Shown: positions 6,078-49,033 of the stretch, piece after piece
How the letters are laid out: each line of letters begins with the position of its first letter
Numbering within the stretch: the stretch's first letter is position 1
Assembly (NCBI GenBank): GCA_003054655.1
Contig: QAYZ01000014.1
Coordinates: 558,001-622,000 of the forward strand
Source: Spartobacteria bacterium LR76
GTDB lineage: Bacteria > Verrucomicrobiota > Verrucomicrobiia > Chthoniobacterales > Terrimicrobiaceae
DNA length: 64,000 nt
Direction of reading: 5' to 3'
Made by a program: the position numbers and the translations under genes
Notes under the pieces: model-generated
The model's input: only the letters and a program-made list of their open reading frames with translations
Database searches by the model: none
Told to the model about the DNA's origin: nothing

Positions 6078-6174
6078 CACACCTCGGAAGGCAGCAGGCG
6101 CCCCGGCTTTTACGTGGGAAAATGGTCTTTTGCGAAATCAGGGCCGTTCCCCGATGTAGGAAATCCCGAAATGC

Positions 6175-7440: not shown

Positions 7441-7444
7441 ATTT

Positions 7445-11449: not shown

Positions 11450-11451
11450 AA

Positions 11452-11470
11452 ATCAGGGAGCCTCCCTGAT
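11452..11470 (+). terminator. hairpin after the S51 gene
   Basis: ATCAGGGA and TCCCTGAT form a perfect 8-bp stem with a 3-base loop, two bases after the S51 stop codon. No clear T-run follows on the + strand, so it is a probable transcription-end or RNA-stabilising hairpin rather than a textbook intrinsic terminator. It separates the peptidase-thrC operon from the PEP-CTERM cassette. Confidence 0.5.
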
Positions 11471-11489
11471 GACAAAAAAGGACTGGAAT

Positions 11490-11518
11490 TTAATAACGAT
11501 CGAAATGATCGTGATTAA
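11490..11518. promoter_or_regulatory. imperfect palindrome with ACGAT-N7-ATCGT core (putative operator)
   Basis: Two 12-base arms (TTAATAACGATC and GATCGTGATTAA) match at 11 of 12 positions around a 5-base spacer. The core ACGAT-N7-ATCGT occupies 11496-11512. It lies in the AT-rich gap before the PEP-CTERM gene, 22 bases before its chosen start. The same core with the same spacing occurs at 22215-22231, upstream of the second S51 gene. A dimeric transcription factor site is the simplest reading; the regulator is unknown. Confidence 0.55.
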
Positions 11519-11540
11519 CAATGAGGGAAAAAACAAAAAA

Positions 11541-13391
11541 ATGACACACACGCTGCCAAAAGCCTCCCGAGGGAAAGTGGGAGGACAACTCGCCCGGATC
11601 TTGGCGATCGCTGCCATCGCCGGAGGATTATCTGAATCGATCAACGCTGCCACGTATACGTGGGACGGCGGTACGGGTTCTACTGGTGCCTGGAACACTG
11701 CGGCCAACTGGACGGATGACACAGTTAGTTTTGGTCCGAGTTCTATTCTGTATTTTTCGGCTCCGGGAACTGTCTACAACACCGTTCAAATCAATTCCTA
11801 TGTTGTAAACAATGGAAATGCAGCCACGCTGATCTTCGGATCGGAGACATCAGAAAGTGGTGGGGTTTCCATTATTGGAAACAATAACACCATCACACTC
11901 GTAGGAACTCTCGGATCGAGCCTCGGATTTACCGGCGATCTCGCTTCCGCAAATATCGGCCTCTGGGTTCAGGCAGGCGCAGGTGCCAATGGATTGTATG
12001 CCAACGACACCTCGACTAACACTGCGACAAAATCCAAGGTTGGGGTGCCGATAAGTGTTGGCCTGAACACCACCTTCCTCAATGAATCTGGAAGCGATTT
12101 CTATCTGGATTCGAGGTTGCGCAGTAATAGTGGAGGTTCGCTCATCCTGCGCAAAGGATCGTGGGTGATCGATTACGCAGACATTGTAAACGGCAGCGGA
12201 GAAAGTAGTGAAATCAAAGGCCTTACCATTGAGGACGCCAAGTTAACGCTCAATGTTTCTGGAGGAACGACTGGAACAAATTCGAACAGCCCTCTTGGAC
12301 GGGGAGCGTTGAATCTCGGCCTGGCGGGTTCAGACAAGGACGCGGTCTTTGTGTTCACCTCACTGCAGCGAGCTTCCGACGCGGACAGCAACCGGCTTAC
12401 TCCCACCTCTGGCAATGTGGTCAATGTTGCAGAGGGAACCGGGAAGCGAGTGATTCAAAACGGCAGTGCTGCGAATAAGGAACTTTATTCGTCCCTCACC
12501 ATCAATGGGTCTGCCACCTTGACGCTGGACAATAACAGCATCGATGGCGCTTCTATGGAGATCAGCGCGGATGCATCGGGAGTTAGTATCTCGAACGACG
12601 CTCTGACCGGAGTCCGGGGCACCGGAAACCTCTACCTGACGGGCGGCGGTACATATTTTACCAAAGCCGGAGTAGTCGATGTTACCAAGGGCGTGCGCAA
12701 CAGCTTCACCGGAAAAACGACGGTTCACCAGGGCACGCTGCAATTCATCGAGAGCGGCGGATTTCAGAAATCCTCCGTCATCCAGGTCGACAAGCAGGGC
12801 GTGCTCGATGTCAGTCAGGCGACCAGCGGATATATCGTCGGCGACAGCACCTATCTCAGCGGTTCCGAGACGCAGACGCTCTCGGGCACGGGCAACGTCG
12901 TCGGTACGCTCCTGCTCGGCAGCCAGTCCGTCCTGCGTGCTGGAGGCACGGATGCCGGTAGCTATCGGGCGTCGCTCTCCTTTGCTAGTGATCTCTCGCT
13001 CGGACCATTAACTGTCGCAGATTTATCAGGTGTCTATTATGGAGCAGTAGATACGACAGGAGTCCTTGCCTATGCGGGTGAGCTGCGGGTGACTTTGGCA
13101 CAGGGATTCACTGCGGGCGGTATTTACGATTTGTTCGGATTTGGCACGGAAGCCGGGGATTTTGCCGCGATCACGGTGTATTCCGGCACGAACCTGCTGG
13201 GAAGCCTCTCTCAGGGCGTGGGCGAGTTTGCCACGCTGTGGACCGGATCCATATCGGGGCAGGACTATTCCTTTGACCAACTGAGCGGTGATCTCACCGT
13301 GAGCGCGATTCCCGAGCCTCATACGATGGTCCTGCTCGGGTTGGCCGCATTCTTGCTTATTGCTAACAAGCGCCGGTTCATCCGGCTTTAA
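11541..13391 (+). CDS. PEP-CTERM surface protein with autotransporter-type beta repeats
   Basis: 616 residues from the ATG at 11541. An earlier in-frame ATG at 11469 overlaps the hairpin and palindrome and would give an unlikely leader. The signal peptide (LARILAIAAIAGG) ends near INAA. The mature protein opens with TYTWDGGTGSTGAWNTAANW and is rich in Ser, Thr, Gly and Asn. It contains elements like the autotransporter-associated beta-strand repeat, for example FTGKTTVHQGTLQF (about 393-406) and GTGNVVGTLLLGSQSVLRAGG. The C-terminus is a classic PEP-CTERM sorting signal: IPEPHTMVLLGLAAFLL, then KRR. Known PEP-CTERM proteins are processed by exosortase, which is not in this window. This is the likely cargo of the four prepilin-like genes that follow directly. 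Confidence 0.85.
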   Translation: MTHTLPKASRGKVGGQLARILAIAAIAGGLSESINAATYTWDGGTGSTGAWNTAANWTDDTVSFGPSSILYFSAPGTVYNTVQINSYVVNNGNAATLIFGSETSESGGVSIIGNNNTITLVGTLGSSLGFTGDLASANIGLWVQAGAGANGLYANDTSTNTATKSKVGVPISVGLNTTFLNESGSDFYLDSRLRSNSGGSLILRKGSWVIDYADIVNGSGESSEIKGLTIEDAKLTLNVSGGTTGTNSNSPLGRGALNLGLAGSDKDAVFVFTSLQRASDADSNRLTPTSGNVVNVAEGTGKRVIQNGSAANKELYSSLTINGSATLTLDNNSIDGASMEISADASGVSISNDALTGVRGTGNLYLTGGGTYFTKAGVVDVTKGVRNSFTGKTTVHQGTLQFIESGGFQKSSVIQVDKQGVLDVSQATSGYIVGDSTYLSGSETQTLSGTGNVVGTLLLGSQSVLRAGGTDAGSYRASLSFASDLSLGPLTVADLSGVYYGAVDTTGVLAYAGELRVTLAQGFTAGGIYDLFGFGTEAGDFAAITVYSGTNLLGSLSQGVGEFATLWTGSISGQDYSFDQLSGDLTVSAIPEPHTMVLLGLAAFLLIANKRRFIRL

Positions 13392-13402
13392 GAATCGTTA
13401 GG

Positions 13403-13960
13403 ATGCTGCTGCCTAATCCCATACGAAACACGTCGCACGTCCGCCCGTTGCTGGGCGGACGTGAGGCTGGTTTTTCCCTGGTGGAGGCCTGCATCGCCAT
13501 CGGCCTGGTGGCTTTTTGCCTCGTGGCGCTGCTGGGCCTGTTTCAGGTCGGCCTTACCCAGGAGCGGCAGGCGATCGATCAGGTGCAGGCGGCGCATATC
13601 CTCGCTGCCGTCTCCGATGAGTTTCGCGGTCTGGGCCGTTTGCCGGATGGTACCAAAAGCACGCAGATCACGGGAGAGCGCTTCGGGTTGAAACTTCCAG
13701 ACGCTGGAGGCACGGCCTTTGAGCCGTCGACCCCCATCCGGGTCAATGAGCAGGGAACCATCTCTGCGACGAATCCGTCCTACGTCATTTACTATTGGAT
13801 CACCCCGCCGACTGCGGCGCAGGGCATCTATGCGCCCTATCGCCTCAGGGCCGTCGTGGCCTGGCCCGGCAGCGCGACCGTTCAGGGAACCGCGGATGCA
13901 CCGCAGTTGAAGAACGCCCGCGGCCACGTGGAAACAACCTTGGAGTTCAGTCGTGGATAA
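13403..13960 (+). CDS. Verru_Chthon cassette protein B (prepilin/pseudopilin-like)
   Basis: 185 residues. The N-terminus has a type IV prepilin processing site: a basic leader, then GFSLVE with Gly23 at -1 and Glu28 at +5, followed by a ~22-residue hydrophobic helix (ACIAIGLVAFCLVALLGLFQV). The rest is a small globular domain. Length and context match the Verru_Chthon cassette protein B family, and by size it is comparable to the minor pseudopilin GspI. It starts 11 bases after the PEP-CTERM gene and overlaps the next gene by 8 bases, so it is part of one transcript. It probably resides in the inner membrane before assembly. Confidence is high for the prepilin class and moderate for the family letter. 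Confidence 0.82.
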   Translation: MLLPNPIRNTSHVRPLLGGREAGFSLVEACIAIGLVAFCLVALLGLFQVGLTQERQAIDQVQAAHILAAVSDEFRGLGRLPDGTKSTQITGERFGLKLPDAGGTAFEPSTPIRVNEQGTISATNPSYVIYYWITPPTAAQGIYAPYRLRAVVAWPGSATVQGTADAPQLKNARGHVETTLEFSRG

Positions 13961-14750
13961 TCGCCGTCACACCAGAGCCTTTACGCTCATCGAGCTTCTC
14001 GCGGCCACGGCCGTGTTCATTCTTCTCATGGGTCTGCTCATGCAGGTGCTCGGCTCGGTGAGCAGCACGAGCGATCTTTCCCAGCGCAGGCTGGAGGTGC
14101 TCCGCCAGGCGATCTCCGCGCTCCAGCGCGTCGAGTTTGACCTGCGCGAGACGATCCGCACGGGAGGCTCCGGCATTTTTGTCAACAAAGGAGGATCAGG
14201 GAATATCAACGACGAGTTGTACTTCCTGGCCCCGGTCTCGGGCAGCACCAGCCCGACCGAACCACGCAAGCTCTCCCTCGTCAAATATGGCGTGGCCTCT
14301 CCGGGAGCCGCGCAACCGGCCTTCGGCCAATGGCCCGAGATGCCAGCTCTTTCCCGCACCGTGGTCCCGTTTGATTGGGCGGACGACGTGGGTCGGCTCC
14401 TGCCTCTTTCGGCCAGCACCACCGCGTCTGCTGCCACCGGTGGCGACACCCAGCAAATCTCCCCCAGCGTCATCCGGTATGAAATCTGCTTCCAGCAATG
14501 GAATGGAACGATCACCAGCCAGCCGCCGACGGATTTGAGCAGCGTACGCGCTCTCCTCATCGGCGTGGTGGCGATCGACAAAAAAGCGGCATCACGTTTG
14601 ACGCAGGGCGAGAGGGATTCTCTGGCAGTACGCTTTGAGAAACCACAAGACGGTGTTCGCCCCTCGGCAAAATGGAATGACGAAATAGGGAACCTCCCCC
14701 AGAGCGTTCGGGAAGGAATTCGCATCTATGAACAAACCATATCTATCTAA
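13953..14750 (+). CDS. Verru_Chthon cassette protein C (prepilin/pseudopilin-like)
   Basis: 265 residues from a GTG at 13953. The prepilin site is RAFTLIELL, with Ala9 at -1 and Glu14 at +5, followed by a hydrophobic helix (ATAVFILLMGLLMQVLGSV). A globular domain follows with QRRLEVLRQAISALQRVEFDLRE, a layout like the minor pseudopilin GspJ, which also has a longer body than GspI. It overlaps genes on both sides (8 bases upstream, 23 downstream), which shows tight translational coupling. Its assignment as cassette protein C rests on order and size; the start has no strong ribosome site, in keeping with coupling. Confidence 0.8.
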   Translation: MDNRRHTRAFTLIELLAATAVFILLMGLLMQVLGSVSSTSDLSQRRLEVLRQAISALQRVEFDLRETIRTGGSGIFVNKGGSGNINDELYFLAPVSGSTSPTEPRKLSLVKYGVASPGAAQPAFGQWPEMPALSRTVVPFDWADDVGRLLPLSASTTASAATGGDTQQISPSVIRYEICFQQWNGTITSQPPTDLSSVRALLIGVVAIDKKAASRLTQGERDSLAVRFEKPQDGVRPSAKWNDEIGNLPQSVREGIRIYEQTISI

Positions 14751-15351
14751 TCGCTCCGCCTTTTCAGTGGTGGAGCTCCTCACGGTGATCTCGCTGATCT
14801 CGGTGCTCACCGTCATGGTGACACCTGCGGTCTCCTCCATCATGGGAGCCACCGGCACCACCCGCGCCGTCAACGATGTCTCCAGCGTGATGGAGCATGC
14901 CCGGCAGTCCGCCATGAAGCTCAGCACGTGGGTCTGGGTCGGCGTGGCCGATGTCACGGCTGACAACAACGGATCTCCGCAGATCTGCATCGTGGAACTC
15001 GCCAGCAAGGACGGCTCCTCCGATGCCTCTCCGGCAAACCTGATGCCGCTCCGGCGCAATATGAACGTGCAAGGGGTGAAGTTCCCAACCGCCAAAGACC
15101 CGGATGCCGCGACCATCGGCGACGATAGTCCCGTCTCCAGCCTCGACTGGCAGGTCGTCACCACCAGCGGTCGGCGGAGCGTGGACTTCAAGGATCGCGT
15201 GATCGCCTTCTCGCCCAAGGGTGAGGCGACTCTCGACGGCGATGTCTCCCCGGCCTGGATCAAGGTCCCATTCGTTTCCTACAACAACAGCTCCGATCTC
15301 AAATCCGTGCTTGTGTCCGGCCCGTCCGGTCAGGTGGTTGTCGTACACTAG
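14728..15351 (+). CDS. Verru_Chthon cassette protein D (prepilin/pseudopilin-like)
   Basis: 207 residues. The N-terminal prepilin motif is SAFSVVELLTVISLISVL, with Ala11 at -1 and Glu16 at +5. The body is a GspH/FimT-like globular domain: a segment VSSVMEHARQSAMKLSTWVWVG directly after the helix resembles the FimT/GspH arrangement (helix, then beta strands). It lies 3 bases before the cassette A gene. Together B, C and D supply three of the four minor-pseudopilin types of a type II secretion tip (I, J and H). Confidence 0.8.
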   Translation: MNKPYLSNRSAFSVVELLTVISLISVLTVMVTPAVSSIMGATGTTRAVNDVSSVMEHARQSAMKLSTWVWVGVADVTADNNGSPQICIVELASKDGSSDASPANLMPLRRNMNVQGVKFPTAKDPDAATIGDDSPVSSLDWQVVTTSGRRSVDFKDRVIAFSPKGEATLDGDVSPAWIKVPFVSYNNSSDLKSVLVSGPSGQVVVVH

Positions 15352-33441: not shown

Positions 33442-34404
33442 ATGGACTCGGAAGGTCGCTCGCCCTGTTGTGTTCCCCGTCAGGAGCGCCCAGGCCTGCC
33501 CTCGCAACCTCTCCAGTCTGCCTCGTGCTGTGGAAAAAATCCCCGTTTTGCCGGGAACCTTGTATCGCTCCCCGGAGGATGGTTCCTCATGGGTACGGAT
33601 TCCCCCGAGCGCTGGGAGGCCGATGGCGAGGGACCCGTGCGCGAGGTGGAGCTTTCGCCCTTTTCCATCGACGCTACCGCGGTTTCCAACGACGAGTTTG
33701 CCGCCTTCGTACACGACACGGGGTACGTCACCGAAGCCGAGCGTATCGGCTCATCGTTCGTCTTTTGGAAGCAACTGCCCAAAGCCTGGCAGCGGCGCGG
33801 CCAGCCGGGACGCAGCATGCCTGGCGCGGATTGGTGGATTCTGGTCAAGGGCGCTTCGTGGAAACACCCCGAGGGTCCCGGCTCCGACCTGCGCGGAAAG
33901 GGGGGGCACCCGGTCGTCCATGTCTCCTGGAACGATGCCTCCGCCTTCGCCCGGTGGGCGGGAAAACGCCTGCCGACCGAGGCGGAGTGGGAATACGCTG
34001 CGCGCGGCGGATTGGTGCAAAAGCTCTACCCCTGGGGCGACGAACTGACGCCCGGCGGTAAACACCACTGCAACATCTGGCAGGGAAAGTTCCCGGACGA
34101 GAATCGCCCGGAGGACGGCCATTTATGGACTGCTCCCGTCCGGAGCTACGAGCCCAATGGCTTCGGGCTCTACCAGACTTCTGGCAACGTCTGGGAATGG
34201 TGCTCCGATTTCTGGGGGACGCATTGGCCGGAGGGCCTTCTGCGCAATCCCCGAGGAGCAGCCTTCGGCGAGGACCGCGTGATCCGGGGCGGCTCGTTTC
34301 TTTGTCACGCTTCGTACTGCAACCGCTACCGCGTCGCAGCACGCACCCACATCAGCCCCGATTCGGCGACGAGCCATTGCGGGTTTCGCTGCGCCGCGGA
34401 CTAA
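33442..34404 (+). CDS. formylglycine-generating enzyme (FGE)
   Basis: 320 residues; a good ribosome site (GGAAGG) lies 7 bases before the ATG. The FGE-sulfatase domain starts near residue 43 (LPGGWFLMGTD) with PTEAEWEYAARGG near 180 and a C-terminal catalytic block RGGSF-CHASYCNRYRVAAR, then a GFRCA end. The CxxxxC pair (in CHASYC) is the copper/catalytic cysteine pair of true FGE, absent in many merely FGE-like proteins. The enzyme oxidises a cysteine of type I sulfatases to formylglycine. The N-terminal ~40 residues carry two CC pairs (SPCCV and ASCCG). No sulfatase is in the window, so it must serve genes elsewhere; the neighbouring sulfate-uptake genes fit a sulfate-release theme. Confidence 0.9.
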   Translation: MDSEGRSPCCVPRQERPGLPSQPLQSASCCGKNPRFAGNLVSLPGGWFLMGTDSPERWEADGEGPVREVELSPFSIDATAVSNDEFAAFVHDTGYVTEAERIGSSFVFWKQLPKAWQRRGQPGRSMPGADWWILVKGASWKHPEGPGSDLRGKGGHPVVHVSWNDASAFARWAGKRLPTEAEWEYAARGGLVQKLYPWGDELTPGGKHHCNIWQGKFPDENRPEDGHLWTAPVRSYEPNGFGLYQTSGNVWEWCSDFWGTHWPEGLLRNPRGAAFGEDRVIRGGSFLCHASYCNRYRVAARTHISPDSATSHCGFRCAAD

Positions 34405-39145: not shown

Positions 39146-39287
39146 GGCGCGTATTTACCCTTGCCCACGTCGCTGTGACCAGAAATACCGGCTGGCAGCG
39201 CCTTTATCGACCGCCCCAGCAGAGTACCGCCTCCGGGCCGCCTAAAAGTCTCGAATTCAGCCCGGAATTTGAGAAGATCCGGCGCGA

Positions 39288-40547
39288 ATGGCAACGAACG
39301 CGCAAAACGCGGCTTCCCACGTCCACCGAATCACGTCCGGCCTTCTCCCTGAGGATGTCCTGGAGCAGCTCCGACCATCTCATGAGCCGCTCCCTCCTCG
39401 CGTTCCCGGCGCATCGCTGACCTCGACCGAGGCCATTCAACGCCGATGGGCGCTGCTTCACGGATCAGAATCCGCCCGGGCCGTGCTGTGGAATGGCGAG
39501 GACCTCGCGACCTATGCGGGCAATATCGAAAACGCAATCGGTGAGGTTCGTGTTCCGATCGCGATCGCCGGACCTCTGCGCGTTAATGGAAGCTTCGCTC
39601 ATGGGGACTATTACGTACCGCTCGCTACCACGGAGGCAGCGCTGGTCGCTTCCTACACGCGAGGATGCCAGTTGCTGAGCGAGGCGGGGGGATGTTCTGC
39701 GTTGCTCTTGTCCGAGGGTGTCAGCCGGGTGCCCGGTTTCGTTTTCTCCAATCTGGTGGAGGTCGGGATCTTCGTGAATTGGCTGCTCTCGCAGAAGGAA
39801 ATCTTCACGCAGGTGGCGGAGTCCACCACCAGTCACGGAAAATTGCTCGATATGCGCCTCACCGTGGAGGGGAATCATGTTTACGTCATCTTCGAGTACC
39901 ACACCGCCGACGCCGCCGGGCAGAACATGGTGACCATCGCAACCCAGGCCGTCTGTGATTACATCGCAGAGCATTCGCCGGTGCGACCTCGCCATATCTT
40001 CGTCGAGGCCAATCTCTCCGGCGACAAGAAAGCCAGCGCCCAGTCTTTTCAGACAGTACGGGGTCGCAAGGTGGCTGCCGAGTGCCTCCTCCCTGCCGCC
40101 GCTTTGGAGAAGCGGCTGCATGCACCTGCCTCGGCGCTTGAGGAATACTGGCGGATGTCCGCCCTCGGCGGCGTGCTTAGCGGGACCATCGGGGTGCAGG
40201 GACACTTCGCCAACGGCCTCGCCGCTCTCTTTCTCGCCACCGGTCAGGACGTCGCCTGTGTCTCGGAGGCAGCGGTGGGCATCACCCGCTTCGAGGCGCA
40301 ACCGGATGGCAGTCTCTATGCCGCGGTCACTTTGCCCAACGTCATTGTCGGCACCGTGGGCGGGGGCACGAAACTGCCCACACAGTCGGCTTGTCTCGAA
40401 ATTCTCGGCTTGAAAGGGACGGGCCATGCGCGGGCTCTGGCCGAGGTGGCCGCCGCCCTGGCGCTCGCGGGCGAGCTGTCCATCATCGGAGCGCTGGCCG
40501 CCGGGCATTTCACCCGGGCTCACCGCAAGTTGGCTCGTAACGACTGA
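39288..40547 (+). CDS. HMG-CoA reductase (class I type)
   Basis: 419 residues. Class I HMGR marks are present in order: an ENAIGEVRVPIAIAGPL segment near 82, TTEAALVAS with Glu116, ADAAGQNM near 210 (in place of DAMGMNM), ANLSGDKKAS with Lys247/248, NGLAALFLATGQDVA with Asp321, VGGGTKLPTQ near 365 and AAGHFTRAH with His407. These correspond to the Glu, Lys, Asp and His catalytic residues of the human enzyme, so activity is likely. The enzyme reduces HMG-CoA to mevalonate with two NADPH. No mevalonate kinase, decarboxylase or HMG-CoA synthase gene is in the window, so either mevalonate is used elsewhere or the substrate differs. It is the first gene of a seven-gene set; UbiA starts 4 bases after its stop. 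Confidence 0.85.
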   Translation: MATNAQNAASHVHRITSGLLPEDVLEQLRPSHEPLPPRVPGASLTSTEAIQRRWALLHGSESARAVLWNGEDLATYAGNIENAIGEVRVPIAIAGPLRVNGSFAHGDYYVPLATTEAALVASYTRGCQLLSEAGGCSALLLSEGVSRVPGFVFSNLVEVGIFVNWLLSQKEIFTQVAESTTSHGKLLDMRLTVEGNHVYVIFEYHTADAAGQNMVTIATQAVCDYIAEHSPVRPRHIFVEANLSGDKKASAQSFQTVRGRKVAAECLLPAAALEKRLHAPASALEEYWRMSALGGVLSGTIGVQGHFANGLAALFLATGQDVACVSEAAVGITRFEAQPDGSLYAAVTLPNVIVGTVGGGTKLPTQSACLEILGLKGTGHARALAEVAAALALAGELSIIGALAAGHFTRAHRKLARND

Positions 40548-40551
40548 TCCG

Positions 40552-41475
40552 ATGAGCGAGCAACCGCGAGGCGCCCGCCGCTGGTGGATTTATCAAAAGG
40601 AGCGATTTCCCCTGCTTGCCCACGGGCCGCTGATCCTGGCGTTCAGCCTTTGCGCTCTCTGTTTCTCCTCGCTCTTGCGTGGCGCCGATCACTTTCCTGC
40701 CGTCCCGGCGATCCTGGTGGCGTTCTTTTCCTCCCTGATTTCCTTCCTTCACCTGCGGCTGGCCGACGAGTTCAAGGACTATGAGGAGGATGCTCGCTAT
40801 CGTCCCTATCGAGCTGTTCCGCGCGGACTGGTGTCTCTCAGGGAACTGGGGATTCTCTGGGCGGTAACCGGTTTGATCCAGGTCGCGCTTGCCGCCGCGC
40901 TCAATATCCGCCTCATCCCACTGCTTCTCATCACCTGGCTCTATCTCGGGCTGATGAGCAGGGAGTTCTTCTGCAAGGCCTGGCTGAAAGCTCATCCCTT
41001 CACCTACATGTGGACGCACATGTTCATCATGCCGCTGATCGATTTCTATGCGACGGCATGCGACTGGCTGATGGTCTCCGATCGTCCTCCGCAGGGGCTG
41101 ATGTGGTTTGTCGTGGTGAGCTTTCTCAATGGATTCATCATCGAAATCGGCCGCAAGATCCGCGCACCCCACGATGAGGAGCATGGGGTGGAAACCTACT
41201 CGTTTCTCTGGGGCCGGGTCGGGGCGGTGGGAGCGTGGTTGCTGGCCATGGGGCTGACGTATTCCTTCGCCGTCGTTGCCGCGCTCCGCATTCACTTCAT
41301 GCCCCCGGTGGCTTTGTTGCTCGGGCTCGTGCTGGCTGTCGCTATTTTCACAGGACTGTGCTTTCTGCGGCAACCACGGAGCGGCAAGGCATTCGAAACA
41401 TTGTCGGGGATATGGACGCTCTGCTTGTATCTGATGCTCGGCGTGATCCCCCTCCTGTGGAAACTCCTAGCCTAA
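40552..41475 (+). CDS. UbiA-family prenyltransferase
   Basis: 307 residues with eight or nine TM segments. The first Asp-rich motif is ADEFKDYEED (Asp72, Asp76, Asp80), corresponding to NDxxDxxxD that binds prenyl diphosphate through Mg2+. The second region is IGRKIRAPHDEEHGVETYSF near 205-224, where the usual DxEGD is replaced by a His/Asp/Glu-rich form. The family moves a polyprenyl or phytyl chain onto an aromatic ring, glycerol phosphate or other acceptor in the inner membrane. The stop overlaps the start of the next gene by one base (TAATG). The acceptor is unknown; the context excludes a simple quinone operon. Confidence 0.85.
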   Translation: MSEQPRGARRWWIYQKERFPLLAHGPLILAFSLCALCFSSLLRGADHFPAVPAILVAFFSSLISFLHLRLADEFKDYEEDARYRPYRAVPRGLVSLRELGILWAVTGLIQVALAAALNIRLIPLLLITWLYLGLMSREFFCKAWLKAHPFTYMWTHMFIMPLIDFYATACDWLMVSDRPPQGLMWFVVVSFLNGFIIEIGRKIRAPHDEEHGVETYSFLWGRVGAVGAWLLAMGLTYSFAVVAALRIHFMPPVALLLGLVLAVAIFTGLCFLRQPRSGKAFETLSGIWTLCLYLMLGVIPLLWKLLA

Positions 41476-43961
41476 TGCTGATCTCCTCCTGGCGCGATGC
41501 GGACTTTTCCCACCATCCGGTGGGCGGCAAGGCGCGCGCCCTGGGCGCTCTGACCCAGGCGGGCTTCCCGGTGCCGGAGTGGACCATCGTCCTCCCTGCC
41601 GCCTGGGAGGCCAATGCCAATGACCTCCGTCTCGGACTGGAGACCTTTCTCTCCTCAACGCCGGGCCCATGGGCCGTGCGGTCCTCTGCCGTCGATGAGG
41701 ACGGGCAGGTGCATTCTTTCGCGGGCCAGTTGGAGAGCTTTCTCAATGTCGCGAGGGAGGATGTCCTGGAAAAAATCCAGGCGGTGTGGGGGTCCGGCTT
41801 CAGCGAGCGCATCATTGCCTATCGTACTCAGGCCGGGCTCTCGCTGCCGCCGCCGCTGCCAGCGGTGATCGTACAGCAGATGGTCTCGGCCGAAGCTGCC
41901 GGGGTGGCCTTCAGCGCGGATCCTGTATCCGGACGCCGGGGCGTCGCGGTGGTCGCTGCCGTACGCGGGTTGGGGGAGGCGCTCGTTTCCGGGGAAGCCA
42001 CGGGCGACAGCTTTCATGTGGATCGCGGTCGCCGCATCGTGGAACGCGCAATAGTCAACGCATCCCAGCCGGTGATCGCGGATGTCCGCGTCCTCGAAAT
42101 CGCCGATCTCGTGCGGCGCTCCGAGCGGTACTTCGGCCTTCCTCAGGATATTGAATGGGCCGTGTCAGGCTCTCGCCTGTACCTCCTTCAGTCGCGCCCG
42201 ATCACCTCGCTAACAGGGAAGGTTGATCCGGACGGATTGTGGCAACTATGGGACAATAGCAATATCGCCGAGAGCTACAGTGGCGTGACCACGCCGCTCA
42301 CCTTTAGCTTCGCCCGGCACGTGTACGAGGAGGTCTATCGGCAGTTCGTCAAGATCCTCCGCGTCCCTCTTTGGCGCATCGAAGCCAATCGCGATGTCTT
42401 TGGCCGTATGCTCGGCCTCGTCCGGGGTCGCGTATTTTATAATCTCCTGAGCTGGTATCGCGTCCTCGCCATGCTCCCTGGCTTTGCGGTGAATCGCCGT
42501 TTCATGGAGCAGATGATGGGAGTGAAGGAACCGCTGCCCGACCACGCCGTCGCGGGAATCATCGGGAAGGCCCGCCAGACGCGGTTCTCGGACTACTCGG
42601 AAATCGCGGGAACGATCCTCGGCCTCCTGGGGAATCACCTGCTCCTCTCGGGAAAGATCACCCGATTTTACCAGCGCCTCGATGAAGCCCTGGCCCTCGG
42701 CGACATCGCCCTGGAAGAAATGCGTCCGGATGAGCTGGCTGCCGCCTATCGCCGTTTGCAAAACCAGCTCCTGACCCGATGGGATGCTCCGCTGATCAAT
42801 GACTTCTTCGCGATGGTCTATTTCGGCGTCTCGCGCAAGCTCGTGGACAAGTGGTGCGGCGATCCCGATGGCACGCTGCAAAACGATCTCATCGCCTGTC
42901 AGGGCGGTATCATCAGCGCCGAACCCGCCCGCCGCATGATGCACCTCGCCGAGATGGCCCGCGCGGATGCCAGCCTCCGCACCGCGCTTGCATCTGGCTC
43001 GCTGGCTGAGATCGAGCAGATCATGCCGCCCGCGTTCCGCTCGGAGTATCACGCCTATCTGGAGAAGTTCGGTGATCGCTGCCTGGAGGAGCTCAAGCTC
43101 GAGAGCGCCACCCTTCACGACGACCCATTGCTTTTGCTGCGTTCGGTCGCGCGACTGGCGGAGCGCGACGCCCTGCCTGTTTCGCGCTCGGCCGACCTCG
43201 CCGCCTCCGCGACCCAGCGGGTGGATGTCGCCCTGCGTGGAAGGCGGTTTCGACGATGGCTCTTCGATTTTGTCATTGGCCAGACCCGTGATCGTGTGCG
43301 CGATCGGGAGAATCTTCGTTTTGAGCGAACCCGCGTTTTTGGCCGGGTGCGCCGCATCTTTGTTGAGCTCGGCAAACGCCTGCACGCCCTGGGTGTTTTG
43401 GAGGATGCGCGCGATATCTTTTACCTGGAGGCTGAGGAGTCGATAGGCTTCGTCGAGGGAACGGCGGTGACGACAAATCTCCGCGAGCTCGCCCGGCTGC
43501 GGAAAGAGGAATTTGCCGGATTTGACACCGACCCGCCATCGGATCGCTTTGAGACCCTCGGCGTGGTTTATGTCGGCAACGCCTTTCAGGCCGCGCGGGC
43601 TTCCGTATTGGCGACCGGTGATGAACGCAAGGGCATCGGATGCTGCCCCGGCGTGGTACGCGGCCGGGCTCGGGTGATTCTCGATCCCCGCCACGCGATC
43701 ATTCATCCCGGGGAAATTCTCGTTGCTCCGCGCACGGACCCCGGCTGGATCATGCTCTTTCCCGCCGCCTCCGGCCTCCTGGTCGAGCATGGCAGCCTCC
43801 TCTCGCACTCTGCCATCGTGGCCCGGGAAATGGGAATGCCCGCCGTCGTCTCGATCCCGGGTCTGACCGCCTGGCTCAAGACGGGCGACGAGGTGGAACT
43901 GGACGGCAGCACGGGACGAATCATCCGCGTCGCGGCCTCGGAGGTGTCTCATGCCGAGTGA
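41475..43961 (+). CDS. PEP-synthase/rifampin-phosphotransferase-like enzyme
   Basis: 828 residues from the ATG at 41475 that shares a base with the UbiA stop. Domains in order: an ATP-grasp PEP/pyruvate-binding domain (1 to about 310, with AVRSSAVDEDG, VIVQQMVSAEAAGVAFSADPVSG and LYLLQSRPIT), a ~400-residue central domain starting DNSNIAESYSGVTTPLTFSF, and a C-terminal swivelling domain (about 715-828) with the phospho-accepting His in GSLLSHSAIVAREMGMPAV. This order is that of rifampin phosphotransferase (RPH), not of true PEP synthase, which has a PEP-binding TIM barrel at the C-terminus. Such enzymes transfer the beta-phosphate of ATP through a phospho-His to a substrate alcohol. In this operon a lipid alcohol is a reasonable guess; antibiotic inactivation is the alternative. 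Confidence 0.85.
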   Translation: MLISSWRDADFSHHPVGGKARALGALTQAGFPVPEWTIVLPAAWEANANDLRLGLETFLSSTPGPWAVRSSAVDEDGQVHSFAGQLESFLNVAREDVLEKIQAVWGSGFSERIIAYRTQAGLSLPPPLPAVIVQQMVSAEAAGVAFSADPVSGRRGVAVVAAVRGLGEALVSGEATGDSFHVDRGRRIVERAIVNASQPVIADVRVLEIADLVRRSERYFGLPQDIEWAVSGSRLYLLQSRPITSLTGKVDPDGLWQLWDNSNIAESYSGVTTPLTFSFARHVYEEVYRQFVKILRVPLWRIEANRDVFGRMLGLVRGRVFYNLLSWYRVLAMLPGFAVNRRFMEQMMGVKEPLPDHAVAGIIGKARQTRFSDYSEIAGTILGLLGNHLLLSGKITRFYQRLDEALALGDIALEEMRPDELAAAYRRLQNQLLTRWDAPLINDFFAMVYFGVSRKLVDKWCGDPDGTLQNDLIACQGGIISAEPARRMMHLAEMARADASLRTALASGSLAEIEQIMPPAFRSEYHAYLEKFGDRCLEELKLESATLHDDPLLLLRSVARLAERDALPVSRSADLAASATQRVDVALRGRRFRRWLFDFVIGQTRDRVRDRENLRFERTRVFGRVRRIFVELGKRLHALGVLEDARDIFYLEAEESIGFVEGTAVTTNLRELARLRKEEFAGFDTDPPSDRFETLGVVYVGNAFQAARASVLATGDERKGIGCCPGVVRGRARVILDPRHAIIHPGEILVAPRTDPGWIMLFPAASGLLVEHGSLLSHSAIVAREMGMPAVVSIPGLTAWLKTGDEVELDGSTGRIIRVAASEVSHAE

Positions 43962-45054
43962 AGCCGCGGCTCATGCCGATTTTGCGACGATCCTTCGATA
44001 CGCCCAGGTCTGGGAGGATGCCGATATCCTGATGGAGGGGCTCGACATTCAGCCAGATGACATCTGCCTTTCCATTGCCTCCGCCGGGGACAATGCCCTG
44101 GCCATGCTGGCGAAAGGGCCGCGCAAAGTCGTCGCCATCGATCTGAACCCCTCCCAGCTCGCCTGCCTGGAACTCCGCGTCGCAGCCTTTCGTCACCTCG
44201 AGCGCAACGACGTTCTCGCGCTGATCGGATCGATGGCCGACGGAGCGCGAAGGCCGCGACTCTACGCGGAGGTTCGCGGTTCCCTTTCGGAAACTGCACG
44301 CGCCTTTTGGGATGCACGTCCCGAGTGGATCGCTCGCGGCATTGGCCACGCGGGCAAGTTTGAGAATTACTTCCGTCTTTTTCGGGAGCGGATCATGCCC
44401 TTGGTACACTCGCGCCAGACCATTGATGCACTGCTGCTGCCACGAGACATCGAGGCTCGCCGGACGTTCTATTCACATCGGTGGGACACCTGGCGCTGGC
44501 GGGTGCTTTTCCACGTCTTTTTTTCCCGCGCCATGATGGGCGCCCTGGGGCGCGATCCCAGCTTCTTTCGGTATGTCGAGGGGAGCGTGGCGGAGAAAAT
44601 CCTCGCCCGCACCCGGCATGCCCTCACGGAGCTGGCCCCGGCGGAGAATCCCTATCTGCAATGGATTCTCACGGGCCGGCACGGTTCCTCCCTGCCGTAT
44701 TACCTGCGGGAGGAAAATTTCGAATCCATCCGTCAAAATCTCGACCGCTTGGAGTGGCATCGCGGCCCGCTCGAGGATTTTCTAGGCGGCCATCCTGTGG
44801 GCACATTCAGCAAGTTCAACCTGAGCGACATCTTTGAGTATCTCTCGGAAGAAACCAGCGATGGCATCTTTCGACTCCTGGCCGACTTTGCCCGGCCCGG
44901 AGGGCGGCTTGCCTACTGGAACATGCTTGCCCCACGCCAGCCTCCTGCCTCACTGGCAGGCCGGGTCACGGCGTTGAATGACCTTTCCTCCCGCCTGCAT
45001 GCTCAGGACAAGGCCTTCTTCTATAGTGCGTTTCACGTGGAGGAGTTTCGATGA
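43951..45054 (+). CDS. BtaA-like (DUF3419) aminocarboxypropyl transferase
   Basis: 367 residues, single DUF3419 domain. Marks are YAQVWEDADILMEGL near 13, the SAM-binding loop LSIASAGDNALAMLA near 40, VVAIDLNPSQLACLELR near 63, GIGHAGKFENYFRLFRERIMP and, later, PVGTFSKFNLSDIFEYLSEE. BtaA moves the 3-amino-3-carboxypropyl group of SAM to diacylglycerol, giving the homoserine ether precursor of betaine lipids (DGTS). The usual partner BtaB, an N-methyltransferase, is missing here, while a GNAT acyltransferase lies two genes on. The gene overlaps its neighbours by 11 and 4 bases. The acceptor could be diacylglycerol or an isoprenoid alcohol. Confidence 0.87.
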   Translation: MPSEAAAHADFATILRYAQVWEDADILMEGLDIQPDDICLSIASAGDNALAMLAKGPRKVVAIDLNPSQLACLELRVAAFRHLERNDVLALIGSMADGARRPRLYAEVRGSLSETARAFWDARPEWIARGIGHAGKFENYFRLFRERIMPLVHSRQTIDALLLPRDIEARRTFYSHRWDTWRWRVLFHVFFSRAMMGALGRDPSFFRYVEGSVAEKILARTRHALTELAPAENPYLQWILTGRHGSSLPYYLREENFESIRQNLDRLEWHRGPLEDFLGGHPVGTFSKFNLSDIFEYLSEETSDGIFRLLADFARPGGRLAYWNMLAPRQPPASLAGRVTALNDLSSRLHAQDKAFFYSAFHVEEFR

Positions 45055-46355
45055 ACCCCTGGCTCGGCATCCTCGCCGTTCTTGCCGCCCTGGGATTGCT
45101 CATGGGTGTGGTCCGGTGTTTTCAATCCCGCCTCAGCGCGGAGCTTTCCCGCAAGGCGGTCCACATCGGCATGGGGTTTGTCTGCCTTTCTTTCCCGTGG
45201 CTTTTTCGTGAAGGGTGGCCGGTCGTCCTGCTCGCCATCCTCGCGGTGGCGGGTCTCGGAGCAGTACGGCTCCTCCCGCTGTTGCGCCGACAGATTGGCG
45301 GCGTGCTCGGCGGGGTGGAGCGCCACTCGCTGGGAGAAATCTACTTCCCGATCGCGGTGGCCGTCGTCTTCCTGCTCGCGGGTGGCAATACTCTTCTTTA
45401 CATCATTCCGGTATTGACTCTCACCCTGGCGGATTCTGTCGGAGCGCTCATTGGCATGCGGTATGGCCATGCCCGCTATTGCACGGACGAGGGCTTCAAG
45501 AGCGCGGAGGGTTCGGTGGCCTTTTTCACCGCCGCCTTTCTGAGCTGCCATATCCCGCTTCTGCTTTTTAGCAGTACGGGACGGGCGGAGACATTGCTCA
45601 TCGGCCTGACCGCAGGGTTTGTCGTGATGCTCCTCGAGGCCATCGCCTGGCGGGGCCAGGACAACCTGATCATCCCGATCGGGATGTATTTTCTGCTCAG
45701 CTTCTACCTCCCGCTGAACGAATGGCAGCTCCTCGGCCGGTTTCTTCTCATCCTGGCGCTCGTGGTTCTCGTTATGCTGGTGCGAAATCGCACGACCCTC
45801 AGCGACAGCGCGATCCTTGCCGGTGCGTTGTCGGGATACGCCGTGTGGGCATTTGGCGGGCGCTTCTGGATATTTCCTCCATTGCTCCTCTTTGTCATTT
45901 ACGTCTGGCTGCCATCTTTCCCCAAGTCCGACCGCCCCGTGCAAAATCTCCATGCGGTCACCCGCGTCATGGCGGGCGGTCTGCTCTGGGTTGGGCTGTC
46001 GCATGTCTATGACCGTGATTTTCTGTTGCCGTACTTGCTCTGCATGGCTGCGCATACCGGCAATATCATCACCGCCAGGCTGCGAATCGTTCGCGAGCAT
46101 CTATCGATGAGAAAGATCGCCGTCATCGCCTTTCTGATTGCCTCGGCGGCATTTCTTCTCCTCGGCTCTGGCGGCGTGGTATTGGGGGTTCTTTCGTTCC
46201 GCAGCCTGTTCTGGCTCCCTGTGGCCGTCGCCGTCTCGATTGCTCTCTTTATCCCTTCGTGGCCGCCCGAGCATCGCAGCGATCAGCGGCTGCAGATCTG
46301 GCTTTCCGAGACCGGCATTGCCATCCTTGTCTCCTGCCTCGGCCTGCTCCCTTGA
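45051..46355 (+). CDS. phytol/dolichol kinase-like membrane protein with DUF92-like C-terminus
   Basis: 434 residues, about 12 TM segments. The N-terminal half has the phytol-kinase/dolichol-kinase/CdsA marks SRKAVHIGMGF near 35 and LADSVGALIGMRYG then FKSAEGSVAFF near 125-160 (CTP-binding region). The C-terminal half has TLSDSAILAGALSGYAVWAFGG near 247 and RPVQNLHAVTRVMAGG near 300, resembling the DUF92/VTE6 pattern (GAxxGxxV..GG and QVxANGG). In plants and cyanobacteria VTE5 and VTE6 phosphorylate phytol in two steps to phytyl diphosphate. A single protein doing both would feed a UbiA enzyme such as the one upstream. The first half is a solid match; the DUF92 part is a weaker reading by eye. 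Confidence 0.72.
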   Translation: MNPWLGILAVLAALGLLMGVVRCFQSRLSAELSRKAVHIGMGFVCLSFPWLFREGWPVVLLAILAVAGLGAVRLLPLLRRQIGGVLGGVERHSLGEIYFPIAVAVVFLLAGGNTLLYIIPVLTLTLADSVGALIGMRYGHARYCTDEGFKSAEGSVAFFTAAFLSCHIPLLLFSSTGRAETLLIGLTAGFVVMLLEAIAWRGQDNLIIPIGMYFLLSFYLPLNEWQLLGRFLLILALVVLVMLVRNRTTLSDSAILAGALSGYAVWAFGGRFWIFPPLLLFVIYVWLPSFPKSDRPVQNLHAVTRVMAGGLLWVGLSHVYDRDFLLPYLLCMAAHTGNIITARLRIVREHLSMRKIAVIAFLIASAAFLLLGSGGVVLGVLSFRSLFWLPVAVAVSIALFIPSWPPEHRSDQRLQIWLSETGIAILVSCLGLLP

Positions 46356-46361
46356 TTTCGC

Positions 46362-47315
46362 ATGAACTTCCTCTCCTTCTCCCAGAATCAGGCACCGCCG
46401 GGTTTTGATCCTCGGCTTCTGGTGTCCCGGCAGGTCGATGAACATCTCTCCGATGAGAGCGGGAAAAATCACTGCTCGCTCTGGTGGTCGGTTGTCCCGG
46501 GCATGCCCGGCGAGCGCCCTGGCGTGATCGGCCACTTTGCCGCGAGCAATCTGGATGAAGCCCTGCCTCTCCTCGAGGCTGCCCTCGGACGTCTGCGCGC
46601 CGCCGGATGCACCATCGCCCTCGGGCCGATGGATGGAAACACCTGGCGCCGTTACCGTGTGCTCACCGAACGCGGTGAGGAACCGCCATTTTTCATGGAG
46701 CCGGATAACCCCGTTTGGTGGGGCGATGCGTTTCGTCTCACCGGCTTTTCCTCCCTCGCCACCTATACGTCATCTCTTGTCGACGATCTTTCGCGTCGCG
46801 ACCCCCGGGCGGAGCGGGCTCGCGCTCGACTGGAGGGTGAGGGAATTCACATCAGGAATCTCAATGCTGATCATTTCGAGGGCGACCTGCGGCGCATCTA
46901 CGCCGTATCGGTCGAGAGCTTTACGGGGAATTTTCTCTACACCCCGATTCCGGAATCCGCGTTCATCGCGCAATATCTCCCGTATCAGGACAATATCCGG
47001 CCTGAGTTCGTCTACATCGCCGAGGACCAGGGTGAACCTGTCGGCTATCTCTTTGCCATTCCCGACTACGCCGAGGCTCAGCGCGGCCTTCCCGTTCGTA
47101 CGCTTATCGGCAAGACGCTGGCCAGCATTCCCGGGCGTCGCTATGGAGGCCTCGGCGTCGTCCTCACCGACCTGCTGCACCAGCGGGCGCGGAGCGCGGG
47201 ATTCAGCCGCGTCATTCACGCCCTGCAATACGAGGGTAACAGCGTGCGCAACATGAGCGAGTTCTTCGGTCGTGTCATGCGACGTTACACGCTCTACTTG
47301 CGCCGCCTTTCATGA
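46362..47315 (+). CDS. GNAT-family acyltransferase
   Basis: 317 residues. The N-terminal ~130 residues carry ALGPMDGNTWRRYRV, a motif seen in GNAT-like proteins that act on cell-surface or lipid substrates. The C-terminal GNAT core includes the beta4-beta5 region FVYIAEDQGEPVGYLFAIPDY and the acyl-CoA pyrophosphate loop RRYGGLGVVLTDLL, followed by ALQYEGNSVRNM. It should N-acylate an amino group with acetyl- or acyl-CoA. In this operon the natural candidate is the free amino group left by the BtaA-like reaction, which is inference. It starts 6 bases after the kinase stop and overlaps the AMP ligase by 4 bases. Confidence 0.8.
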   Translation: MNFLSFSQNQAPPGFDPRLLVSRQVDEHLSDESGKNHCSLWWSVVPGMPGERPGVIGHFAASNLDEALPLLEAALGRLRAAGCTIALGPMDGNTWRRYRVLTERGEEPPFFMEPDNPVWWGDAFRLTGFSSLATYTSSLVDDLSRRDPRAERARARLEGEGIHIRNLNADHFEGDLRRIYAVSVESFTGNFLYTPIPESAFIAQYLPYQDNIRPEFVYIAEDQGEPVGYLFAIPDYAEAQRGLPVRTLIGKTLASIPGRRYGGLGVVLTDLLHQRARSAGFSRVIHALQYEGNSVRNMSEFFGRVMRRYTLYLRRLS

Positions 47316-48823
47316 GCACGATCCCGGAAATCCTGCGTGAAAATGCGGCGAGGTGGCCGGATCGTGAGGCCATCGTCGCTACTCGCGCCGGGCGGGATGT
47401 CGCCGTCACGTTTTCCGATCTGGAGCGCCGGGCTGACCTGTTTGCGAGTAAACTCCACGACAGCGGCATCCATCCCGGAGATCCGGTTCTGGTGTTCGTT
47501 CCCATGTCGGTCGAACTCTACACGGCGCTTCTCGGGATCTTTCGTCTCGGAGCCATCGCCGTATTTCTCGATCCCTCCGCAGGGATCAAGCACATCAACG
47601 CCTGTTGCGATCGCCTGCCTCCGCGAGCCCTCATCAGCGTTCTTCCTCTGCGCCTGATCCGGCCGTTTGTCACGGGTCTCCGGCGCATCCCTCGTGTCTT
47701 TGCCCCGCCGTCGGCGCTTGCCGGGGCCCCTGAAAGCCTGCCTCCCATGCCCGGCCCCGACGATGCAGCCTTGATCACCTTCACCAGCGGCAGCACCGGG
47801 CAGCCCAAGGCTGGTGTGCGAACTCATCGCTTTCTCATCGCTCAACACACGGCGCTGAAGGACTCCATCCGTCTCGAGGAGGGCGAGCGCGATCTCACCA
47901 CGCTTCCCGTCTTTGTCCTCGCTAATCTCGCCTCGGGCATCACCAGCATCCTCCCCGATGCAAAAATCAGTCGCCCGGGATCAGTCGATTCCGCTCGGAT
48001 CGCCTGCCAGGTTGCGCGGCTTCGACCGACACGCACCGGCGGCTCTCCTGCCTTTTATCAACGTCTGCTCGCGCAGCCGGACTCACTGTCTGGATTTCGC
48101 AAGATTTACACCGGCGGTGCTCCTGTCTTTCCCGCCTTTCTTCAAGAGCTTCAGGACGCTGCTCCGCAGGCGGATGTCGTCGCCGTTTATGGTTCCACCG
48201 AAGCCGAACCCATCGCGCATATCTGCTGGAAAGAGATTGCCCCCGCAGACTGGGACGCGATGCGGTCCGGGCGAGGCTTGCTCGCCGGGCGTCCCATACC
48301 CGAGATCCATCTCCGCGTGATTCCGGACCAGTGGGGAAAACCGGCAGTCGATTTCACTCCCCAGCTTTCCGGTCACATCGGCGAGATCATTGTGACCGGA
48401 GATCACGTACTCAAGGGCTATCTCCATGGACAGGGTGACTCGGAAACCAAGATTAGAATCGGTGGCGAGATCTGGCATCGGACGGGAGATGCCGGTTATT
48501 TTGACGAGACTGAGCGTCTCTGGCTGGTGGGGAGATGCTCTGCTCGAATCAGCGATGCTCTTGGCACCCTGTATCCGTTTACAGTGGAATGCGTCGCCAT
48601 GGCATTTCCTGCTATTGTGCGGGCGGCATTTATCAGTTCCCATGAAAAAAGGATCCTTGTGATTGAGCCGAGGTCAACTTTCCGGCAGTCTGATGAACTC
48701 AAGACCGCCTGTGCCTGGGCGTGCATCTCCCGCATTCACGAGGTTTCGGAGATCCCTGTCGATGCTCGGCATAATGCCAAAATTGACTACCCAAAGCTCA
48801 AGCTGCTTATGGAAAAAATCTGA
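47312..48823 (+). CDS. OleC-like AMP-dependent ligase
   Basis: 503 residues of the ANL superfamily. Core motifs are the P-loop LITFTSGSTGQPKAGVRTH near 150, VYGSTEAEP near 292, WHRTGDAGY near 390 with the ATP-ribose Asp, and the catalytic Lys in NAKIDYPKLK near the C-terminus. The N-terminal AVFLDPSAGIKHINACC stretch and the YGSTEAEPIA motif resemble OleC, the beta-lactone synthetase of long-chain olefin synthesis, more than ordinary fatty acyl-CoA ligases. OleA, OleB and OleD are absent here. It could activate the acyl chain used by the neighbouring GNAT protein, or form an intramolecular lactone/ester from the homoserine carboxylate. Last gene of the set. Confidence 0.82.
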   Translation: MSTIPEILRENAARWPDREAIVATRAGRDVAVTFSDLERRADLFASKLHDSGIHPGDPVLVFVPMSVELYTALLGIFRLGAIAVFLDPSAGIKHINACCDRLPPRALISVLPLRLIRPFVTGLRRIPRVFAPPSALAGAPESLPPMPGPDDAALITFTSGSTGQPKAGVRTHRFLIAQHTALKDSIRLEEGERDLTTLPVFVLANLASGITSILPDAKISRPGSVDSARIACQVARLRPTRTGGSPAFYQRLLAQPDSLSGFRKIYTGGAPVFPAFLQELQDAAPQADVVAVYGSTEAEPIAHICWKEIAPADWDAMRSGRGLLAGRPIPEIHLRVIPDQWGKPAVDFTPQLSGHIGEIIVTGDHVLKGYLHGQGDSETKIRIGGEIWHRTGDAGYFDETERLWLVGRCSARISDALGTLYPFTVECVAMAFPAIVRAAFISSHEKRILVIEPRSTFRQSDELKTACAWACISRIHEVSEIPVDARHNAKIDYPKLKLLMEKI

Positions 48824-49033
48824 GACTCCGAACGATAACCATCTTTAGGATTGGCGACCGGTTTTTCTTGGTGAAACGGATTCTTGATCAACAGGAGACG
48901 CTGTTACGGACGTGGATCTGGAGGAAGCCGTTGCTTGAACGAAATTCGTCCACGAAATTGGCGTGCAAACACCTTTGTTGCCTCCTGCTCTTTGCTCTCT
49001 TGCGGATGCGGTATCTCTTAAATCGAAAACGAT

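Follow-up and report, generated by a model that had tools for sequence, protein, structure and literature searches.

The window analysed here, that is, the whole stretch of 64,000 nucleotides from Spartobacteria bacterium LR76, harbours a compact cassette of seven genes on the plus strand (39288-48823), which recurs in other phyla and might direct the synthesis of an amino-lipid. In order, these genes encode (i) an HMG-CoA-reductase-like enzyme (HMGR; 419 aa, 39288..40547), recognised by Pfam and its catalytic residues, (ii) a UbiA-superfamily membrane protein (307 aa, 40552..41475), recognised by Pfam and the fold of its model, (iii) a dikinase resembling phosphoenolpyruvate (PEP) synthase and rifampin phosphotransferase (RPH-like; 828 aa, 41475..43961), recognised by its Pfam domains, (iv) a DUF3419/BtaA-like protein (367 aa, 43951..45054), recognised by Pfam, (v) a kinase-like membrane protein (434 aa, 45051..46355), assigned on invariant residues, (vi) a tandem-GNAT acyltransferase (317 aa, 46362..47315), assigned on its predicted fold, and (vii) an acyl-adenylate-forming (AMP) ligase (503 aa, 47312..48823), recognised by an AMP-binding Pfam domain and Lys490. 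Gaps of 4 and 6 bases separate HMGR from UbiA and the membrane protein from the GNAT, respectively, and the other neighbours overlap by 1 (UbiA/RPH-like), 11 (RPH-like/BtaA), 4 (BtaA/membrane protein) and 4 bases (GNAT/ligase). An initial annotation had described this single-strand arrangement, and all its open reading frames (ORFs) were verified at the same coordinates. The mechanical ORF of the RPH-like gene starts at 41235, within UbiA, and its most likely true start is position 41475, where it overlaps that gene in TAATG.

Five of the seven proteins pass Pfam cut-offs, namely HMGR (HMG-CoA_red, 2.1e-109), UbiA (8.5e-12), the BtaA-like protein (DUF3419, 2.9e-76), the RPH-like dikinase (PPDK_N and PEP-utilizers) and the ligase (AMP-binding). 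The label of the GNAT is backed by its fold. The phytol-kinase/DUF92 label of the membrane protein found no profile match in the window protein, and the OleC label of the ligase falls short of the corresponding cut-offs.

Recurrence and movement of the seven-gene set

The view that the seven genes form one functional unit, already proposed initially, is supported because all seven families stand together in 30 of 72 loci, and in 26 of the 72 they follow the order HMGR-UbiA-RPH-BtaA-kinase-GNAT-ligase. The sample comprises 52 loci from one pattern scan of a species-genome collection with peptide patterns of the window BtaA (a selection owing to which this synteny rate does not hold for DUF3419 proteins at large), together with one plasmid, the window itself and 18 loci in genomes of its phylum, Verrucomicrobiota; short or duplicate loci (L001, L054-L080, L101-L106) and second contigs or duplicates (L100, L107-L115) were omitted, and rows below 75% of the family median length were dropped from distances and residue counts. 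Many of the incomplete loci are truncated by contig ends. The 30 full loci fall into seven phyla or groups (Verrucomicrobiota, Pseudomonadota, Deinococcota of the Trueperaceae, Planctomycetota, Nitrospirota, Geobacteraceae and one cyanobacterium), as read from the names of database records, many of which are metagenome-assembled genomes (MAGs).

Spacing is tight in most of the 26 ordered loci: as measured from mechanical ORF ends, the largest gap between neighbours is below 100 bases in 17, below 700 bases in 21 and 2.2-7.2 kb in five, the latter being loci with an RND gene (L030, L041, L042, L044) or several genes (L029) inside the cassette. Full sets also occur in permuted form, as HMGR-BtaA-kinase-GNAT-ligase-UbiA-RPH (L092, L095) and GNAT-ligase-HMGR-UbiA-RPH-BtaA-kinase (L031), while L008 was scored as order 1235467 solely through a mechanical ORF start. 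Two cassettes (L034 and L049) share a genome, provided that its bin is clean; L049 lies close to L003 in the BtaA tree, a grouping that may be a binning error given the similar bin names of these two MAGs. Scattering of the genes in relatives, a possibility raised from the outset, is confined to a few genomes and runs against strict linkage there: two Spirulina loci (L032, L048) hold BtaA alone, with UbiA elsewhere in the genome, as well as RPH for L032. Only UbiA, RPH, BtaA, GNAT and ligase stand together in two Oscillatoria loci (L010, L052), and five cassette genes are clustered in Oscillatoria sp. PCC 10802, for which no HMGR was found.

Evidence for movement comes from the insertion site. 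The stretch 39161..49033 has no counterpart in a genome of the same genus (G788): homology breaks off at 39160, which is 15 bp upstream of a KefC-type gene, and is restored at 49034, where the gene flanking the opposite side ends; both flanking genes are present in G788, with 95% and 93% protein identity. Between these two homology ends, G788 has ~26 kb, by eye a polysaccharide-type cluster. From this pair of genomes alone the site could be taken for a slot holding either the cassette or the polysaccharide cluster, a reading that was rejected, as another relative (L002) holds both, in the order KefC, cassette and the beginning of a G788-like polysaccharide cluster. Since L002 carries a clean insertion of ~9.8 kb relative to G788 (5246-15047, with genes at 5338-14879, where G788 has ~0.2 kb), the seven genes were gained or lost as a single unit, and the lack of the polysaccharide cluster in the window is a separate matter, either of loss or of never having been acquired. 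This cluster (G788:C3:458262-484175, also L119 and L120; L002:15048-21101) shows, by eye, genes for exopolysaccharide export and glycosyltransferases; with no copy at the site in the window, it marks this site as variable.

Occurrence is patchy. Among 387 genomes in the phylum of the window, 19 are positive with a GNAT profile (1e-30); a UbiA profile (1e-50) is positive in three of 57 genomes of its order, including its own and excluding G788. In the phylum of a cyanobacterial carrier, matches were obtained in 18 of 339 genomes, seven of them with much lower scores. All seven genes are found on a plasmid in Roseinatronobacter sp. S2, with HMGR spanning the start of the record. On the BtaA tree, phylum labels need 21 changes (the minimum possible being 12), and well-supported branches force at least three changes for Verrucomicrobiota and at least two for Pseudomonadota.

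The HMG-CoA-reductase-like enzyme

HMGR resembles class I HMG-CoA reductases in its family profile and in its catalytic Glu, Lys, Asp and His: tested against the human set (Glu559, Lys691, Asp767 and His866), the window protein has E116, K247, D321 and H412, which are kept in clustered copies (E116 in all 39 rows covering that column, the other three in 40/40). It differs from them at the residues that handle the HMG carboxylate. Human Ser684 and Lys735 are replaced by Glu240 and Met290 in the window, the former position being Glu in 40/40 clustered HMGRs and the latter never Lys (0/40; Met in 25, Val in 8, Ile in 3, Ala in 2, Ser in 1 and Gly in 1). The 40 copies exclude L111 (the same gene as L020), a plasmid copy split by the start of its record (L081/L100) and a fragment (L021). 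According to PMC9500038, Lys735 forms a salt bridge to the HMG carboxylate. Unlinked second class I HMGRs in two genomes (G036:C71:49544-50548 and G183:C44:91906-92931; L107 and L108) serve as a control and keep both Ser and Lys (2/2). Both of these genomes have a match to HMG-CoA synthase (HMGS), which suggests that they run a mevalonate pathway besides the cassette; five genomes of the same phylum with a single, clustered HMGR (G278, G202, G275, G267, G342) show no HMGS match.

Genome context points the same way. The genome of LR76 itself has no HMGS match and does have DXR, of the methylerythritol phosphate (MEP) pathway, as a split match (2.0e-14). HMGS is not matched in 21 of 25 carrier genomes, 19 of which have DXR (in G014 and G017 neither is matched). 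The HMGS matches in the remaining four carriers (G005, G013, G020 and G021) score 35-53 bits and are possibly untrue, given that the profile (PF01154) also fires on the Escherichia coli and Bacillus subtilis controls. DXR is not matched in three of these four (G013, G020 and G021), some of which may be real mevalonate users; G021 also has a distant second HMGR on the contig of its HMGS (L109, 52 bits with the HMGR model), in which the two key residues are not comparable.

Finally, HMGR appears to be dispensable. It was found in 21 of the 25 carriers (as a single copy in 19), and genome-wide searches found none in G007, G008, G023, G024, G254, G108, G141 and G030. In seven HMGR-less genomes, five or six of the remaining genes are clustered (L010, L013, L052, L087-L090), as are four in another, G023 (L050), an argument presuming that missing matches in draft genomes are real.

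These observations bear on the idea that the cassette is an operon for isoprenoid supply, with HMGR providing the other enzymes with mevalonate. A score above the Pfam cut-off, complete catalytic residues and the three HMGS-positive carriers without a DXR match would agree with it. Set against it are the orphan status of HMGR in most carriers, which have the MEP pathway, and in LR76 itself, the loss of the HMG-carboxylate Lys and the gain of Glu in every clustered copy, unlike the two unlinked ones, and the clusters in genomes without any HMGR. Genome content and residues together make mevalonate supply highly improbable, and the cassette enzyme is probably not a mevalonate enzyme. Judging from its residues, its substrate would have changed, and because it is absent where five or six other genes stay together, it looks like an optional tailoring step.

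What that step might be admits a second reading, in which HMGR and the ligase would turn a fatty acid into a fatty alcohol serving as the lipid backbone, on which BtaA then acts. This would suit an enzyme that needs a CoA thioester in a cassette with one acyl ligase, and the replacement of the carboxylate-binding Lys735 in 40/40 copies. Nonetheless, the HMGR-less clusters keep the GNAT and mostly also the ligase, UbiA is left unexplained and the invariant Glu240 would not be needed for a plain fatty tail; we regard this reading as improbable.

Catalytic features of the other enzymes

As far as sequences tell, catalytic motifs are intact throughout the seven recurring genes. In UbiA, the first Asp-rich motif (D72, D76 and D80) is present in 50/50 rows, and the AlphaFold model (mean confidence score, pLDDT, 95.6) aligns best to archaeal UbiA 4od5 (Z 21.0, root-mean-square deviation 3.4 over 264 residues) and also to 6m31, the digeranylgeranylglyceryl phosphate (DGGGP) synthase of M. 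jannaschii, MjDGGGPS (Z 18.6, 4.6 over 277 residues). It differs from that archaeal enzyme where a second Asp-rich motif is expected: the window protein has E198, R201, K202, R204 and E209, of which E198, R201 and K202 are kept in 50/50 rows and R204 is Arg in 44/50. Weak HMMER alignments with chlorophyll synthase and DGGGPS place R201 and R204 at the first and second acidic positions of this motif. The second motif is documented for DGGGPS in PMC9385802, where the printed motif spacing is self-inconsistent, and its exact register is what we infer. Because Arg and Lys stand in place of this motif, the donor or acceptor of UbiA may depart from the usual prenyl-diphosphate chemistry.

The RPH-like dikinase has both its ATP-binding and phosphohistidine domains matched by Pfam, and conserves K19 (48/49, one gap), R69, E227 and R241 (49/49) as well as His778 (45/45 rows with the column, four more being gapped), residues that we take to form the ATP site and the phosphohistidine. 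A relative (L007) has as best chain 5fbs (E 1.5e-64), deposited as a PEP synthase and presumably the Listeria Rph. These features ally it with Rph, PEP synthase and PigC, from which the window protein differs in that all 25 NCBIfam scores shown, including those for Rph and PigC, lie under their cut-offs.

The membrane protein has no Pfam or NCBIfam match in the window, and only six of 19 relatives match DUF92 (best E 2e-4), other Pfam matches being mostly noise. Weak by profile, its label as a phytol kinase rests on residues invariant in 49/49 rows (E31, R34, K35, H38, D128, G154, D204 and N205), presumably typical of dolichol/phytol kinases. Its N-terminal half resembles polyprenol/phytol/dolichol kinases dependent on cytidine triphosphate, and its C-terminal half is missing in some relatives; this is the weakest of the seven assignments. 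Searches of solved structures gave nothing useful for this protein or for BtaA.

The GNAT scores 19 bits, just below the Pfam cut-off of 20.7, and its model is a tandem GNAT whose nearest solved structure, 7q3a (Z 20.1, rmsd 3.4 over 266 residues), as far as models go, tells no acyl donor. The ligase largely keeps its adenylation motifs and keeps Lys490 (46/47, one gap), with PRK09274 as best NCBIfam score (361 bits, cut-off 478). Because it lies far under the OleC cut-offs (226.5 against 900 bits and 192.6 against 850 bits), its sequence does not imply beta-lactone chemistry.

BtaA transfers the aminocarboxypropyl group of S-adenosylmethionine (SAM) and, with BtaB, makes the betaine lipid diacylglyceryl-trimethylhomoserine (DGTS). 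The cassette protein is a predicted SAM:aminocarboxypropyl transferase, likewise expected to act on a lipid hydroxyl. Could the cassette then encode a DGTS-type variant, in which BtaA works on diacylglycerol? The DUF3419 score and plasmid-borne rhizobial matches of the DUF3419 type (~26-29% identity) would allow it, but no methyltransferase-like family was seen by eye among those present in at least three of the 72 loci (BtaB was not sought genome-wide), and the cassette instead has a tandem GNAT and an acyl ligase. N-acylation would block the very amine that BtaB methylates, and UbiA and HMGR would have no place, all of which makes such a variant very improbable.

A candidate amino-lipid

Beyond a single unit, active-looking enzymes and an HMGR with an altered substrate site, the scheme that follows is conditional at every step, as are its substrates and product. 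In the best reading, the product is an amino-lipid that derives from SAM, is N-acylated and includes an isoprenoid part. A lipid alcohol, most probably a prenol, would be phosphorylated by the membrane kinase, the RPH-like dikinase or both, and the UbiA-like enzyme would link the isoprenoid to an acceptor. BtaA would then transfer the aminocarboxypropyl group from SAM to a hydroxyl; the resulting homoserine ether would have a free amine, which the tandem GNAT would acylate with a fatty acid activated by the ligase, N-acylation taking the place of the methylation seen in betaine lipids. HMGR, repurposed as a four-electron thioester reductase for an acyl-CoA different from HMG-CoA, could optionally convert a carboxyl of the product or a precursor into a primary alcohol. 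The order initially suggested (kinases, UbiA, BtaA, N-acylation) remains chemically plausible, with the unusual active-site motif of UbiA as its uncomfortable point.

Nearest in kind is aminolipid-type biosynthesis. In the synthesis of ornithine-lipid-type aminolipids, too, a GNAT-fold enzyme (OlsB) N-acylates an amino acid; the cassette differs from it by its tandem GNAT, SAM-derived head group and isoprenoid-type enzymes. The acyl unit of fungal siderophores, made by HMGR, the SidI ligase and the SidF GNAT, follows a similar logic, but the cassette has no hydroxylase or nonribosomal peptide synthetase and its HMGR has lost the HMG-specific residues. All its families are known, and their pathway seems not to have been described: in line with the initial annotation, a literature search found no description of the seven-family combination, an absence that is no proof since most subscription journals and preprints lay outside that search.

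That the cassette is horizontally mobile and makes one such undescribed amino-lipid is a tentative reading, to which we give a probability of roughly 0.4. It draws on the conserved set and order (permuted loci and the plasmid copy included), on distances between the seven genes that correlate for all 21 pairs (0.485-0.875, with 0/500 permutations as high per pair), on the clean presence or absence between L002 and G788, on the residues and genome context of HMGR and on the archaeal resemblance of the UbiA model. Several points weigh against it. The distance correlations may partly mirror common species descent. No shuffle out of 200 clusters the phylum labels on the BtaA tree as strongly as observed; descent within phyla also contributes, and more than one label change is no proof of transfer. 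The isoprenoid link hangs on UbiA and on a putative kinase with no profile match, and UbiA, in which the second Asp-rich motif is missing, may not use a prenyl diphosphate at all. In two Opitutus-like MAGs of unstated completeness (L012, L016), BtaA, GNAT and ligase are present and no UbiA or HMGR was found in the genome, so the isoprenoid part may be dispensable.

A bolder version would have a new class of bacterial two-chain amino-lipid, an N-acylated isoprenoid ether of homoserine whose carboxyl is reduced by an HMGR retooled for an amino-acyl thioester, with Glu240 facing the amine. The product, an N-acyl homoserinol ether, would be a ceramide analogue made without serine palmitoyltransferase, and its genes would have spread horizontally through seven phyla or more; we hold this to be unlikely.

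The genes around the cassette were surveyed as ORFs of at least 100 aa within 6 kb, looking for families common to at least three of the 72 loci. Only the seven cassette families proved common, other neighbours being rare. An MMPL/RND transporter adjoins the cassette in 5/72 loci (the L030 copy also matches a sterol-sensing Pfam domain), a P450 in 3/72 (one of which was scanned) and a radical SAM gene with a membrane protein in 4/72. All three would fit the handling of a lipid, and they fit a secreted metabolite equally well, which again counts against the amino-lipid. The same enzymes could indeed make a secreted specialised metabolite, such as a prenylated or acylated amino-acid natural product, instead of a membrane lipid. 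The patchy occurrence described above, these neighbours and a PigE-like aminotransferase beside the variant L016 would be in keeping with this. Against it, no regulator or resistance family is common to at least three loci in this survey, which small carrier proteins would escape; this negative is qualified by a looser linking, which groups sensor-kinase/response-regulator-like ORFs of five loci. A secreted product is somewhat unlikely, though a serious contender.

Several neighbours are worth recording on their own. The radical SAM/SPASM genes and their membrane proteins (L010:3257-5960, L052:3217-6045, L051:2240-4912 and L096:5055-7354, with a small protein in three of the four) belong to two Oscillatoria genomes, a Cyclobacteriaceae MAG and a genome of the phylum of the window; one of three membrane proteins tested has a weak lycopene-cyclase-domain match (16.6 against 39.4 bits). 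The PigE-like region (L016:3-2579; 324.7 bits, cut-off 850), with a weak semialdehyde-dehydrogenase match, stands before the RPH-like gene, BtaA, GNAT and ligase, and L016 may represent another pathway built on this core. In Phormidium tenue a PhoX-type phosphatase, by eye, lies just upstream of an HMGR-less cassette (L013:4053-6284), where phosphate control would fit a phospholipid-replacing lipid. In a Krumholzibacteria MAG, the gene after a divergent cassette is cut by the contig end and matches phosphatidylserine decarboxylase (L025:7465-7836; 22.6 bits, cut-off 22); its product could act on the head group. Set aside were a minus-strand ORF family of L012, L016 and L083, which looks like an antisense reading of coding DNA, a family confined to L006, L010 and L052, and the sensor-kinase and protein-kinase groups from looser linking, treated as generic. 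Elsewhere in the window, an ARAGORN call of tRNA-Gly (33667-33759) is probably false, lying inside an ORF (33442-34404) that by eye is a formylglycine-generating-enzyme-like gene.

In conclusion, the cassette offers a defined, testable gene set for a lipid, or a metabolite resembling one, found in many bacteria not yet cultured and in some that have been. HMG-CoA reductase is the enzyme blocked by statins, and the cassette HMGR is its relative; if our reading is true, this HMG-CoA reductase would serve a new substrate and have no part in the mevalonate pathway. HMGR and UbiA in a bacterial genome should be read with caution, and not as mevalonate or quinone synthesis.

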